NCBI GenBank assembly: GCA_947493165.1
Contig: CANLPY010000001.1
Location: 1,712,501 to 1,776,500 of the forward strand
Direction: 5' to 3'
Source: an uncultured Erythrobacter sp.
Lineage (GTDB): Bacteria; Pseudomonadota; Alphaproteobacteria; Sphingomonadales; Sphingomonadaceae
DNA: 64,000 bases
The position numbers and the translations under genes were made by a program. Below, one piece after another: positions 30,012-33,706 of the stretch. Below the pieces are notes generated by a model. It searched no databases and was not told the origin of the DNA. It saw only the letters and a program-made list of their open reading frames with translations. Each line of letters opens with the position of its first letter. The first letter of the stretch is position 1.

Positions 30012-30398
30012 ATGATCGGATATGTAACACTGGGAACCAATGATCTGCCACGCGCGGCGCAGTTTTATGACGCTGTCGCCGGGGCCATGGGGTATGGCCG
30101 CATGATGGGAGAGGGCGAATTTATCGCTTGGGGCAGCTTTGAGGACGGAACCGCTGGTATCGCCGCGACGAAACCGTTCGATGGCGAAAAAGCCAGTATC
30201 GGCAATGGCGTTATGGCAGCCTTGCAAGTGGACAGCCCAGAAAAAGTGCAAGCCGTCTATGATGTTGCGCTGGCAAAAGGTGGCAGCGACGAAGGTGCGC
30301 CGGGACCACGCGGCGATGATGGATTTTATGCAGGCTATTTCCGCGATCCGGATGGCAACAAGTTGAATGTGTTCTGCATGACGGCACCGCCTGCCTGA
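30012..30398 (+). CDS. VOC (glyoxalase/bleomycin-resistance fold) family protein
   Basis: 128 residues from ATG 30012, preceded by a GA-rich ribosome site. MIGYVTLGTNDLPRAAQFYD is the first beta-alpha unit and GYFRDPDGNKLNVFCM is the closing unit with a conserved Glu-like position replaced by Asn. The fold binds a metal and a small substrate, but the function is not identifiable. The reading frame extends upstream to 29829, but that part runs inside the aminopeptidase gene and is not credible. Confidence 0.84.
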   Translation: MIGYVTLGTNDLPRAAQFYDAVAGAMGYGRMMGEGEFIAWGSFEDGTAGIAATKPFDGEKASIGNGVMAALQVDSPEKVQAVYDVALAKGGSDEGAPGPRGDDGFYAGYFRDPDGNKLNVFCMTAPPA

Positions 30399-30464
30399 TA
30401 AGAGCTACGCGCGCCGGCTAAGCCTTGCGGCCAGCTGAACGCCTTGCGCTGTGCGATACAAAGC

Positions 30465-30493
30465 GCGACAATTCTCCGAAATCGCGGGATAAT
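30465..30493 (+). promoter_or_regulatory. candidate sigma-70-type promoter of the EF-hand leader
   Basis: GCGACA (30465-30470), a 17-nt spacer, then GATAAT (30488-30493): 4/6 and 5/6 to the consensus. Transcription would start near 30500, about 160 nt before the EF-hand gene, which allows for the structured leader. Confidence 0.5.
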
Positions 30494-30524
30494 TCTGCGA
30501 CATATGCGCTCTAGAACAGGTCTC

Positions 30525-30605
30525 ATGAGCTGCGGCGGATGTAGCATTGGACACTCCGCTCTGAAATACCCATTCAGGGGCCCGGCTGGCCATGCCTCTC
30601 CCTGA
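30525..30605 (+). CDS. possible 26-residue Cys-rich leader peptide
   Basis: An ATG at 30525 preceded by CAGGTCTC opens a 26-codon frame ending in TGA at 30603-30605. The peptide begins MSCGGCSIGH (a CxxC pair) and later has KYPFRGPAGHASP. Its first codons form the 5' arm of the 12-bp leader stem, so its translation would compete with RNA folding. Only sequence inspection supports this. It may be chance, since the frame is short and the region is mainly notable for secondary structure. Confidence 0.35.
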   Translation: MSCGGCSIGHSALKYPFRGPAGHASP

Positions 30606-30637
30606 TTGTGCCAGTCGGCACGCCGCCGCAGCTCTTT
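30527..30637 (+). ncRNA. structured 5' leader of the EF-hand gene (candidate cis-regulatory RNA)
   Basis: The outer stem is a perfect 12-bp pair: GAGCTGCGGCGG (30527-30538) with CCGCCGCAGCTC (30623-30634), followed by TTTT. Inside are TCAGGG...CCCTGA (30574-30605), a GTGCC-AGTC-GGCAC hairpin (30608-30621) and a weaker AGC/GCT plus GGA/TCC hairpin near 30543-30560. Together they make a branched, cloverleaf-like junction. The ribosome site GGAG (30653-30656) lies just downstream. The 265-bp gap between the VOC and EF-hand genes contains nothing else. It could be a riboswitch, an attenuator or an independent small RNA; no known class is recognised. Confidence 0.6.
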
Positions 30638-30663
30638 TGGATTGAACTCGATGGAGACTACAA

Positions 30664-31401
30664 ATGCGCAAACTTACCCTGACACTCTCAGCTGCTGCCT
30701 TAGCCCTTGGCGTTGGCGGTGCGGGCGCTGCCCTGGCGGATCATCATAGCGGCAAAGGCGGCGGCATGATCAAAGCAGACGCCGATGGCGATGGCGTTGT
30801 ATCCTTAGCAGAAGCCAAAGCGCATGGCGCTGAGCGCTTCACCAAAATGGACGCGAATAGCGATGGAGTGGTGAACGCCGAAGATAGAGCAGCGAGACGA
30901 GCACAGCGGTTTGCAACAGCTGATACGAATGGCGACGGTGAACTTTCGCAAGCTGAAATGACTGCAGCGCGCGAAAACCGAAATGCCAAACGCGCAGAAC
31001 GACGCGCCGAACGCCAAGCCAATCGCTTTACCCGTCTCGACACGGACAACAGCGGCGGCGTGAGCGAGGCGGAAATGACCGCAGCCAGAGAAGCGCGGCA
31101 GGAAGCGCGCGGTGAACGACGCGGCGGAGGCAAGCGCGCAAAACGTGGCGGTAAGCGCGGCGGCAAGATGATGCGAATGATGCGCCGGGCTGATACCAAC
31201 GGCGATTCTGCCGTTAGCCGGACCGAGTTCGATGCGGCCATCGAAGCACGCTTTGCGCGGGTCGATACCGACAGCTCAGGCACCATCACCGCTGAAGAGC
31301 GCGAAGCAGCCCGCGAAGCGCGGCGCGCGCAGCGTAGTGAGCGCCGCAGCCAACGACGCGATGAACGTCGCGGTCAGATGGAACGCAGCGGTTCGCGCTA
31401 A
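30664..31401 (+). CDS. secreted EF-hand calcium-binding protein with Arg-rich linkers
   Basis: A 245-residue protein with a signal peptide (MRKLTLTLSAAALALGVGGA...ALA). Six EF-hand-like loops are readable: DADGDGVVSLAE, DANSDGVVNAED, DTNGDGELSQAE, DTDNSGGVSEAE, DTNGDSAVSRTE and DTDSSGTITAEE. The fourth and fifth deviate at ligand positions. Between loops lie long Arg/Ala-rich helices such as REARRAQRSERRSQRRDERR. It is probably periplasmic, and the role could be calcium sensing or buffering. It precedes an OmpR-type regulator and kinase by about 100 bp on the same strand. Confidence 0.88.
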   Translation: MRKLTLTLSAAALALGVGGAGAALADHHSGKGGGMIKADADGDGVVSLAEAKAHGAERFTKMDANSDGVVNAEDRAARRAQRFATADTNGDGELSQAEMTAARENRNAKRAERRAERQANRFTRLDTDNSGGVSEAEMTAAREARQEARGERRGGGKRAKRGGKRGGKMMRMMRRADTNGDSAVSRTEFDAAIEARFARVDTDSSGTITAEEREAAREARRAQRSERRSQRRDERRGQMERSGSR

Positions 31402-31430
31402 GACTGTCTAACAGCTGACGGATCTGCTGG

Positions 31431-31465
31431 CCCGCTCGCATCCCGCAAATAGGTTGCGAAGCGGG
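31431..31465 (+). other. stem-loop between the EF-hand gene and the response regulator
   Basis: CCCGC (31431-31435) pairs with GCGGG (31461-31465), and inside it CGCAA-ATAGG-TTGCG forms a perfect hairpin. There is no T-tract after it, so it may be a weak terminator, an mRNA processing site or a leader element of the regulator gene 34 bp downstream. Confidence 0.4.
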
Positions 31466-31499
31466 TCAGGGCGCGTCATGCCAGCACAAGACCGCACTA

Positions 31500-32264
31500 A
31501 TGACTGATATTGTCCCCGCCTCGATCCTGCTTGTCGATGATGAGCCTAGCCTGCGCGAGCCGCTTGCCGAGTATCTGGCCGGTCAGGGCTTTGCCGTCAG
31601 TGAGGCAGAGAGCGCAGCTGCAGCGCGCTCTCAATTGGTCACGGCGACGCCAAATATTGTTCTGCTTGATGTGATGATGCCGGGCGAAGATGGCCTGTCA
31701 TTGTGCCGCCATCTGGTCGAAACGAAAGAACTGCCTGTCATTCTGCTGACGGCGCGCGGTGAGCCGACAGATCGCATCGTGGGCTTGGAGCTTGGCGCAG
31801 ACGATTACATCGTCAAACCGTTTGAGCCTCGCGAGCTGGTTGCCCGCATCAGATCTGTGCTCAGGAGAGCGCAGCGGGGCGGAACCACAAGGGCGTCTCT
31901 GCCTGATGAGCGAGATTGGCTCTATGGCTTCGAGGGTTGGCTGCTGGATCCTCTAAAACGCAAACTCATTGATCCTGAAGGTATCACCGTGCCTATTTCT
32001 ACGGCGGAGTTTCGGCTCTTGCGAGCGCTGCTCGACAATCCGCGAAAGGTGATGGACCGCGATCAATTGCTCGACATGGTCCAGGGGCGAGAGGCGCATT
32101 TGTTTGACCGAGCAGTCGACAATCAAGTCAGCCGGTTGCGCCGAAAGATCGAAGCAGACAGCCGGGACCCCATGCTCATCCAAACCGTTCGCGGCGGCGG
32201 CTATCGTTTCGCAGTCAAAGTCAAACGCATTGCCCCTTCGCCAGATGGCGCTGGTGAAGCGTGA
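31500..32264 (+). CDS. OmpR/PhoB family response regulator
   Basis: 254 residues. The receiver domain has acidic pocket residues in LLVDDEPS, phosphoacceptor Asp57 in IVLLDVMMPGEDG, and the KPF switch motif. A C-terminal winged-helix DNA-binding domain runs from about residue 150 to 245 and ends DPMLIQTVRGGGYRFAV. It is coupled to the kinase gene by a GTGA overlap. Nothing links it to phosphate specifically, so it is not called PhoB. The neighbouring EF-hand gene is a candidate target. Confidence 0.92.
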   Translation: MTDIVPASILLVDDEPSLREPLAEYLAGQGFAVSEAESAAAARSQLVTATPNIVLLDVMMPGEDGLSLCRHLVETKELPVILLTARGEPTDRIVGLELGADDYIVKPFEPRELVARIRSVLRRAQRGGTTRASLPDERDWLYGFEGWLLDPLKRKLIDPEGITVPISTAEFRLLRALLDNPRKVMDRDQLLDMVQGREAHLFDRAVDNQVSRLRRKIEADSRDPMLIQTVRGGGYRFAVKVKRIAPSPDGAGEA

Positions 32265-33706
32265 AACGACTGCTGCCAAACAGCCTCTTGGGACAAGTCA
32301 TGCTGGTGCTTGCCCTTGGCCTGATGGTTGGGCAAGCGATCTCTGCGATCTTGCTCTATCAGGCGGCGGAGCAGCGGCGCGAAACCGCGCTGGTCAGCTC
32401 GGTCGCCTTCCGCCTTGTGACAGAAATGGATGGGCCGCGCTCTGAAGAGAGGCGGGCACGGCGCGAAGCGAGACGCGCCGAACGCCGCGCAGCACGCCGC
32501 GAGCTTGGCGCCCCGGTGGGGGACCGCCCTCCTCCACCCTTTGCGCGGCGCCTTCGGTTTAGTGTTGAACAAACGGACGTTCTGCCGATCACTGTCGATG
32601 AGGATCGCTTTCCTGACTATGAAACAGCCTTGCGCGAAGTGTTCACCCAGCAGGATATTGTCGTGGGTTCCATCGCCATAACAAAGCGCCTCGCTGGCAA
32701 TGATCCGTTTGTCCGCAAGATGGTCGACGAACGGCCTCGGCTGAATGGGCCGGGCTGGCAAGACCGGGAAGTTCTTGTTGCAGCGGTGCAGCGCGCCGAT
32801 GAAACGGGCTGGATGATCGCGCGCACGACTTTACCAAAGGCTCCCCGAAATGCGCTGAGTTCGATCATGCTGCAAACACTCCTGATCTTCGCGATCCTGT
32901 TTGCGCTGCTCTATTTTGTGTTACGCCGGATTACTCGCCCACTCGCCAAATTGACCACTCGCGTTGCAGACTTCTCACGCCAGCCTGATCAAGCCATCGC
33001 ACTAGAGGAAAGCGGACCGGGCGATATGCGGAGATTGATCGCCGCGCATAATGCTATGGAAACGCGGATCGCCGCCTTGCTCGATGAAAAGGACGTAATG
33101 CTGGGCGCGATCGGGCATGACTTGAAGACACCGCTCGCGGCACTGCGTGTGCGGATCGAAAGTGTGCCTGACGAAACCCAGCGTGATCGAATGGCCGATA
33201 GTATTGATGACATTTCCACCACGCTCGACGATATTCTGTCGCTCGCACGGGTCGGCAAAGCTGGCGGTGTGAGCGAAAATGTTGATCTAGGCGCATTGAC
33301 CAGCGGCGTGGTTGAGGAGTTTGAAGACCTCGGGCAACCGGTAAGGATTGTACAAACGTCTCGCTTGGTGGCGCCGGTCCAGGTAAGCTGGTTGAAGCGC
33401 GCTCTGCGCAACTTAGTCAGCAATGCCATACGCTACGGTAACGAAGCACAGGTCTCCGTGTTCGAGGAAGCTGATACGATCATCTTTACCGTCGATGATA
33501 CAGGTCCCGGCATTCCTGACAGCGCAATTGAAGCAATGATGGAGCCCTTCACTCGTGGTGAGGGTTCTCGCAACCGAGCGACAGGCGGTGCCGGCTTAGG
33601 CCTGACCTTGGCGCGCGCAATTGCGGAGCAGCACGGCGGAACCCTATTGCTTTTCAATCGTAATGAGGGCGGACTTCGCGCTCAGATTGTTCTTCCAAAG
33701 AGCTAA
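32261..33706 (+). CDS. membrane sensor histidine kinase, partner of the upstream regulator
   Basis: 481 residues from a GTG that overlaps the regulator stop (GTGA). A first membrane segment (about 10-32) is followed by a periplasmic part of about 165 residues with a strikingly Arg/Ala-rich stretch near 60-88 (RARREARRAERRAARREL). A second membrane segment is near 205-225, then come HAMP, HisKA with His286 in IGHDLKTPLAALR, and HATPase (NAIRYGNEA, DDTGPGIP, GAGLGLTLARAIAEQHGG). It is an EnvZ-like architecture. The signal is unknown; the adjacent EF-hand protein with similar Arg-rich tracts is a candidate partner. Confidence 0.92.
   Translation: MKRLLPNSLLGQVMLVLALGLMVGQAISAILLYQAAEQRRETALVSSVAFRLVTEMDGPRSEERRARREARRAERRAARRELGAPVGDRPPPPFARRLRFSVEQTDVLPITVDEDRFPDYETALREVFTQQDIVVGSIAITKRLAGNDPFVRKMVDERPRLNGPGWQDREVLVAAVQRADETGWMIARTTLPKAPRNALSSIMLQTLLIFAILFALLYFVLRRITRPLAKLTTRVADFSRQPDQAIALEESGPGDMRRLIAAHNAMETRIAALLDEKDVMLGAIGHDLKTPLAALRVRIESVPDETQRDRMADSIDDISTTLDDILSLARVGKAGGVSENVDLGALTSGVVEEFEDLGQPVRIVQTSRLVAPVQVSWLKRALRNLVSNAIRYGNEAQVSVFEEADTIIFTVDDTGPGIPDSAIEAMMEPFTRGEGSRNRATGGAGLGLTLARAIAEQHGGTLLLFNRNEGGLRAQIVLPKS

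Follow-up and report, generated by a model that had tools for sequence, protein, structure and literature searches.

Among the known kinds of bacterial regulator are leader-peptide attenuators and upstream ORFs with cysteine codons that sense metals. A different arrangement is seen in the Agrobacterium small RNA PmaR, which is described as a long stem with a single-stranded loop containing C-rich regions, a spoon-like shape, and whose C-rich stretch is reported not to be an anti-Shine-Dalgarno. The Caulobacter small RNA GsrN has a C-rich 5' loop that pairs with mRNA. For the decay of mRNAs from the 5' end, a review gives a requirement of Bacillus RppH for at least two unpaired 5' nucleotides and a preference for three or more.

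We analysed a stretch of 64,000 nucleotides from an uncultured Erythrobacter sp. (the window), in which an earlier note had pointed to a structured leader before an EF-hand gene and a two-component pair. This arrangement was confirmed. When 65 loci were tested, the response regulator gene was found downstream of the leader in 63; in L028 it was absent from the stretch covered and in L093 it lay beyond the contig end. The genes of the locus in the window are the following.

30012-30398: glyoxalase-like gene, the upstream flank of the leader region
30653-30657, forward strand: Shine-Dalgarno GGAGA of the EF-hand gene, read from the sequence, outside the outer stem P1
30664-31401, forward strand: EF-hand protein gene (Pfam EF-hand models), product of the secreted type, N terminus judged by eye
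31500-32264, forward strand: OmpR/PhoB-type response regulator (Pfam Response_reg and Trans_reg_C; nearest NCBIfam model OmpR, below cut-off)
32261-33706, forward strand: sensor histidine kinase (Pfam HATPase_c and HisKA; nearest NCBIfam model EnvZ, below cut-off)

Among named relatives of the EF-hand gene, the three close ones come from uncultured Erythrobacter, and the fourth match is from Anderseniella with 39%. Its product has a sub-threshold NCBIfam similarity to lanmodulin and XopAW, a likeness that most likely comes from the EF-hand repeats alone. Near the N terminus of the histidine kinase there is a very arginine-rich stretch, RSEERRARREARRAERRAARRE, which echoes the arginine-rich EF-hand protein. 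Between the EF-hand stop codon and the start of the response regulator lies a GC-rich hairpin (31427-31469), which may determine how much EF-hand mRNA there is relative to regulator mRNA. Judged by eye, this intergenic stem is strong in many, not all, relatives of the same genus and often reads GGCCCGG...CCGGGCC followed by CTTTCATG.

The leader is closed by a perfect 12-bp stem, as the earlier note had stated, and comprises these parts.

30527-30538, forward strand: 5' arm of the outer stem P1, GAGCTGCGGCGG, supported by covariation and a register control
30539-30622, forward strand: variable interior with inner hairpins, in other genera a short C-loop hairpin
30595-30603, forward strand: C-rich unpaired tract CCTCTCCCT, the loop of the last inner hairpin, predicted unpaired 0.88, kept in relatives
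30623-30634, forward strand: 3' arm of P1, CCGCCGCAGCTC, pairing with 30527-30538, supported by covariation and a register control

In the minimum-energy fold the last inner hairpin spans 30583-30617. The region marked out in the note folds with -73 kcal/mol (z = -2.52), a value equalled or surpassed by 4 of 200 dinucleotide shuffles, so that the folding energy, taken alone, is a modest signal.

Covariation in homologous leaders, the check proposed in the note, was analysed with orthologues of the EF-hand protein. A search of 120 whole genomes gave 91 with a match at E 0.001 or better, and the window plus the 37 other genomes of the genus whose matches were strongest (E 1e-28 or better) were taken as the orthologue set, in which L024, at a contig end, was swapped for L040. 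The stem was found directly before the EF-hand gene in 36 of these 38. In L025 and L027 the promoter is kept and the stem is absent, leaving a leader of about 30 nt before the EF-hand ATG. Since the promoter is kept there without it, the hairpin is dispensable in these two, and both are useful natural controls with promoter boxes and no hairpin. The 36 leaders, located via the EF-hand protein and not via the stem, were aligned with MAFFT. Standard pairs occupied 98.6% of the 432 cells of the 12 P1 pairs, and compensatory double changes were observed in 9 of the 12. None of 500 shuffles reached any of five measures. When the partner was slid by 1-3 columns, the pairing fell to 38-59%, and RNAalifold returned exactly the same 12 pairs from the 36 leaders. 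The register of the stem was the one with the best 9-bp match; the same choice made on shuffled sequence scored 4.80 versus 8.41 observed, and pairs 10-12, which lie outside this choice, were standard in 104 of 108 cells versus 44.1 in the shuffles. Both leader sets together, these 36 and the 29 described below, contained 117 G-U cells versus 2 A-C cells, therefore it is the sense-strand RNA that is kept. The sequences thus show that compensatory changes in the sense-strand RNA maintain the stem.

The distribution of the leader was followed with R1, a covariance model built from the 36 leaders. In the window's own genome R1 gave 1 match and no second copy of the leader was found. In the genus, 41 of 114 genomes matched, one match each, a lossy search since 11 of the 36 genomes whose leader was already known were missed, and in the order 26 of 346 genomes matched, all in one family and distributed over 7 genera. 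All 31 matches outside the R1 set were inspected, 16 in the genus and 15 in other genera. Promoter boxes were present in 29 and an EF-hand ORF was visible in 28 of these, L093 being cut by the contig end, whereas L095 and L097 were false matches, with boxes and EF-hand ORF absent by eye. The 29 further leaders had 331 of 348 pair cells standard, a figure that is partly selection because R1 itself scores these pairs, and 6 pairs showed double changes. The inner pairs 10 and 12 failed in 7 and 9 of the 29, which leaves about nine outer pairs as strict ones.

A second covariance model, R2, represents the short form of the leader. It matched 92 of 397 family genomes in 29 of 96 genera, with 95 matches in total, of which 11 were already known, 40 more were inspected and 44 were left outside the count. 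The 20 best new matches all had the boxes and an EF-hand-type ORF; among 20 others, picked to include weak and second matches, 12 were genuine (L128 and L139 included) and 8 false. Ten matches from the genus and family were dropped before counting, since by eye they had no boxes and no EF-hand ORF (L095, L097, L127, L129-L134 and L137). The accepted leaders number 97 in 22 genera of one Sphingomonadales family, a family identified by its Erythrobacter records. An EF-hand-type ORF follows in 96, the remaining one being cut by a contig end; as boxes and ORF had been used for acceptance, the position before an EF-hand gene is an independent result only for the strong matches. When the search was extended to the class, 7 of 385 genomes matched, and the 5 outside the family were weak and showed neither a GCGACA box in the 90 nt upstream nor a visible EF-hand ORF.

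Rfam 15 gave no match at the gathering threshold in the 64 kb window. When L001 was searched at E up to 10, only 5 weak matches appeared, one of which (FAM13A-AS1_2, E 8.5) overlaps the leader. The remark in the note that no known RNA class fits is thus upheld in that no Rfam family matches the leader. In the titles and abstract openings of the open-licence literature searched, no description of the leader was noticed. The leader seems to represent a structured RNA family that has not been described before; it shows strong covariation, occurs in 22 genera of a single family and is tied to a single operon.

The promoter had been read earlier as the pair GCGACA-17-GATAAT (30465-30493). This pair is found by a scan, but conservation suggests assigning its sequences to regulator boxes, with TAGAAC as the -10 element.

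30455-30471, forward strand: tandem regulator-type boxes GATACAA and GCGACAA, 10 bp apart, consensus GatACAAa.cGCGACAA in 97 leaders
30486-30502, forward strand: third conserved box GGGATAATTCTGCGACA, consensus CGGGAtAATcCtGCGACA in 97 leaders, covering the expected -35 region
30512-30517, forward strand: probable -10 element TAGAAC, from the conservation of a -10-like element in relatives
30525, forward strand: putative transcription start, a purine after a pyrimidine, with 7 nt between the -10 element and the start

Upstream, the 97 leaders have in common the boxes GatACAA, GCGACAA, GGGATAAT and TGCGACA, and the GCGACA of the third box lies 32 bp after the first GCGACA. When the box pair was searched in the window's own genome, 8 matches were obtained, one of them this promoter, versus 3 for a reversed control. 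In 53 of 64 leaders a -10-like element starts 14 or 15 nt upstream of the stem; 3 have it at other distances and in 8 none was matched. A purine occupies position +1 in 94 of the 97 leaders, and position -1 is a pyrimidine in 90. Because the -10-like box has a near-fixed distance and a pyrimidine/purine step follows, we placed the start at 30525, and two nucleotides of the transcript would precede the stem. With their spacing of about 10 bp, the tandem boxes look like sites of OmpR/PhoB-type regulators, which makes control of the promoter by the downstream OmpR-type regulator likely, with putative binding at the boxes. A scan of 30400-30720 for terminator-like sites, limited to loops of 3-8 nt and blind to this stem, found none, and in 13 of 64 leaders a TTTT lies no more than 12 nt beyond the stem.

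In the other genera the leader is 53-72 nt long in 46 of 47 cases (L084 has 90 nt), and the Erythrobacter form varies from 56 to 165 nt, the long ones having added inner hairpins. The motif CUCCC was present in 87 of the 97 interiors versus 29.0 expected from mononucleotide shuffles, and in 1 on the opposite strand. Pyrimidine runs of at least 8 were found in 88 of the 97 versus 37.9 expected. The longest pyrimidine tract had a mean predicted unpaired probability of 0.83 in the 97 leaders, in which the 5' arm of P1 was paired with 0.98; for 64 leaders the tract had 0.79 versus 0.37 for the rest of the interior. Plain C density (mean 7.15 C per 9 nt versus 6.21 in shuffles) gave a weak signal because the interior is C-rich throughout; tract length, unpairedness and motif counts were used in its place. 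These counts and fold predictions show that the loop is a C-rich tract, predicted to be unpaired.

The loop motif CUCCC can pair with sequence of the Shine-Dalgarno kind. The pairing of the loop with the Shine-Dalgarno was calculated, with start codons set by rule, so that a few Shine-Dalgarno windows, such as that of L076, may be shifted. The Shine-Dalgarno region had a mean predicted unpaired probability of 0.60 in 64 leaders. The loop paired with its own Shine-Dalgarno at -9.12 kcal/mol versus -9.08 kcal/mol with those of other genomes (permutation P = 0.41), showing no coevolution, and a coevolving switch between the two found no support. With the 3' tail of the stem, the own Shine-Dalgarno was slightly better than swapped ones (permutation P = 0.022), a weak effect that we do not claim as pairing. 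A riboswitch or thermometer sequestering the Shine-Dalgarno does not fit either, since this site lies outside P1, is predicted to be mostly unpaired and shows no coevolution with the loop. Given a loop that fits its own Shine-Dalgarno no better than those of other genomes, a mostly open site and the small effect of the tail, the partner of the loop may be this ribosome site, another RNA or a protein.

Taken together, we favour, with somewhat better than even confidence, that the leader is a conserved 5'-terminal hairpin of the EF-hand mRNA which would act after transcription, both as a shield of the 5' end and, through its CUCCC loop, as a platform for pairing with G-rich or Shine-Dalgarno-like sequence. 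In this model RNA synthesis would begin two nucleotides ahead of the stem, controlled by boxes to which the OmpR-type regulator encoded downstream would bind. The hairpin would then act post-transcriptionally on the EF-hand mRNA: its base would shield the 5' end from 5'-end-dependent decay, whereas the CUCCC-rich loop would pair with a G-rich, Shine-Dalgarno-like sequence, either the own ribosome site or a partner RNA. As the outcome, the level of the EF-hand protein would be set relative to the regulator pair. Since the overhang of two nucleotides equals the minimum given for Bacillus RppH in the review, the shielding may be partial. The leader lends itself to testing whether the C-rich loops known in small RNAs also serve as fixed 5' ends of mRNAs.

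It was considered whether the leader is mainly a trans-acting RNA, with a hairpin that outlives the processing or decay of the mRNA and a C-rich loop that pairs with the Shine-Dalgarno regions of other mRNAs; the two-component system would thereby gain a small-RNA arm. An accessible C-rich loop on a stable stem is predicted for the 97 leaders, the long stem with a single-stranded C-rich loop has the shape called spoon-like for PmaR, a C-rich loop works in trans in GsrN, and the absent coevolution with the own Shine-Dalgarno fits targets elsewhere. However, there is no sign of an independent transcript with its own terminator: TTTT after the stem is infrequent in the 64 leaders, the short-loop scan of 30400-30720 gave no terminator-like site, and an EF-hand-type ORF lies close downstream in 96 of the 97 leaders. 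The own genome yielded no second copy. That all 96 accepted copies with a visible downstream gene precede an EF-hand-type gene also argues against it, though this gene helped to accept the weak matches. We regard a mainly trans-acting leader as unlikely. Similarly doubtful is a dual-function RNA, in which the OmpR-type system induces an mRNA whose 5' hairpin serves as an anti-Shine-Dalgarno 'spoon' on other envelope mRNAs. If this were true, one transcript would carry an exported EF-hand protein and a family-wide riboregulator.

The favoured 5'-terminal hairpin could also be reduced to its stem, being only a stabiliser of the ompA/papA type with a loop that is C-rich merely to stay unpaired. 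The stem begins about two nucleotides from the putative start, and the RppH requirement given in the review fits such a role, but A- or U-rich loops would presumably stay open just as well, and the specific CUCCC make-up in most leaders makes a stabiliser alone quite improbable. Even less probable is a protein site, for example for an RNA chaperone or an autoregulating product, recognised via the C-rich loop, although a short, unpaired and sequence-constrained loop on a covarying stem would be the usual layout for one.

The earlier note had proposed that translation of a short ORF melts the stem and so attenuates or senses metal.

30525-30605, forward strand: 26-codon ORF MSCGGCSIGHSALKYPFRGPAGHASP, judged coincidental, start triplet and frame not conserved

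The ORF exists in the window, but its ATG is located two bases before the 5' arm and not inside it, and its stop codon (30603-30605), placed before the last hairpin in the note, sits within the C-rich loop of this hairpin. The ATG is composed of the presumed +1 A, the +2 U and the first G of the stem. At the corresponding position the 97 leaders have ATG in 28, GTG in 30, ACG in 25, AAG in 6 and others in 8. Thus 39 have no ATG, GTG or TTG, which is the loss of the small ORF under a persisting stem that the note had named as speaking against its idea. In the 58 ATG or GTG cases the frame runs from 7 to 278 codons, in some in frame into the EF-hand gene. Cys3 is common (54 of 58) since it is spelled by the stem (AGT TGC GGN), but Cys6 occurs in only 3 of 58. 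In L003, which has the EF-hand protein most like that of the window (82%), the frame has 13 codons and looks unrelated after codon 5. With neither start triplet nor frame kept and Cys6 rare, a cysteine-containing leader peptide is extremely improbable. The small ORF looks like a coincidence that plays no part, and a plausible reading is corrected in that it is what the presumed transcription start and the stem happen to spell. Equally improbable is a DNA operator, for although the inverted repeat adjoins the conserved promoter region, a DNA palindrome is not expected to prefer G-T over A-C mismatches, as seen in the 117 versus 2 cells.

Compared with leader-peptide attenuators and cysteine-containing upstream ORF sensors, the leader shares a short ORF that overlaps the stem in the window, but unlike in these the ORF is not conserved, and neither the short-loop scan nor the TTTT count gave a sign of a terminator. 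The leader resembles PmaR and GsrN in having a C-rich loop, which in PmaR is single-stranded on a long stem; these are trans-acting small RNAs, whereas the leader forms the start of a single mRNA and the own genome yielded no other copy. With the stabilising stem-loops of ompA and papA it would have in common a helix within about two nucleotides of the presumed 5' end. Unlike those, the leader, for which stabilisation is putative, keeps a C-rich loop and belongs to the same single operon throughout the family.
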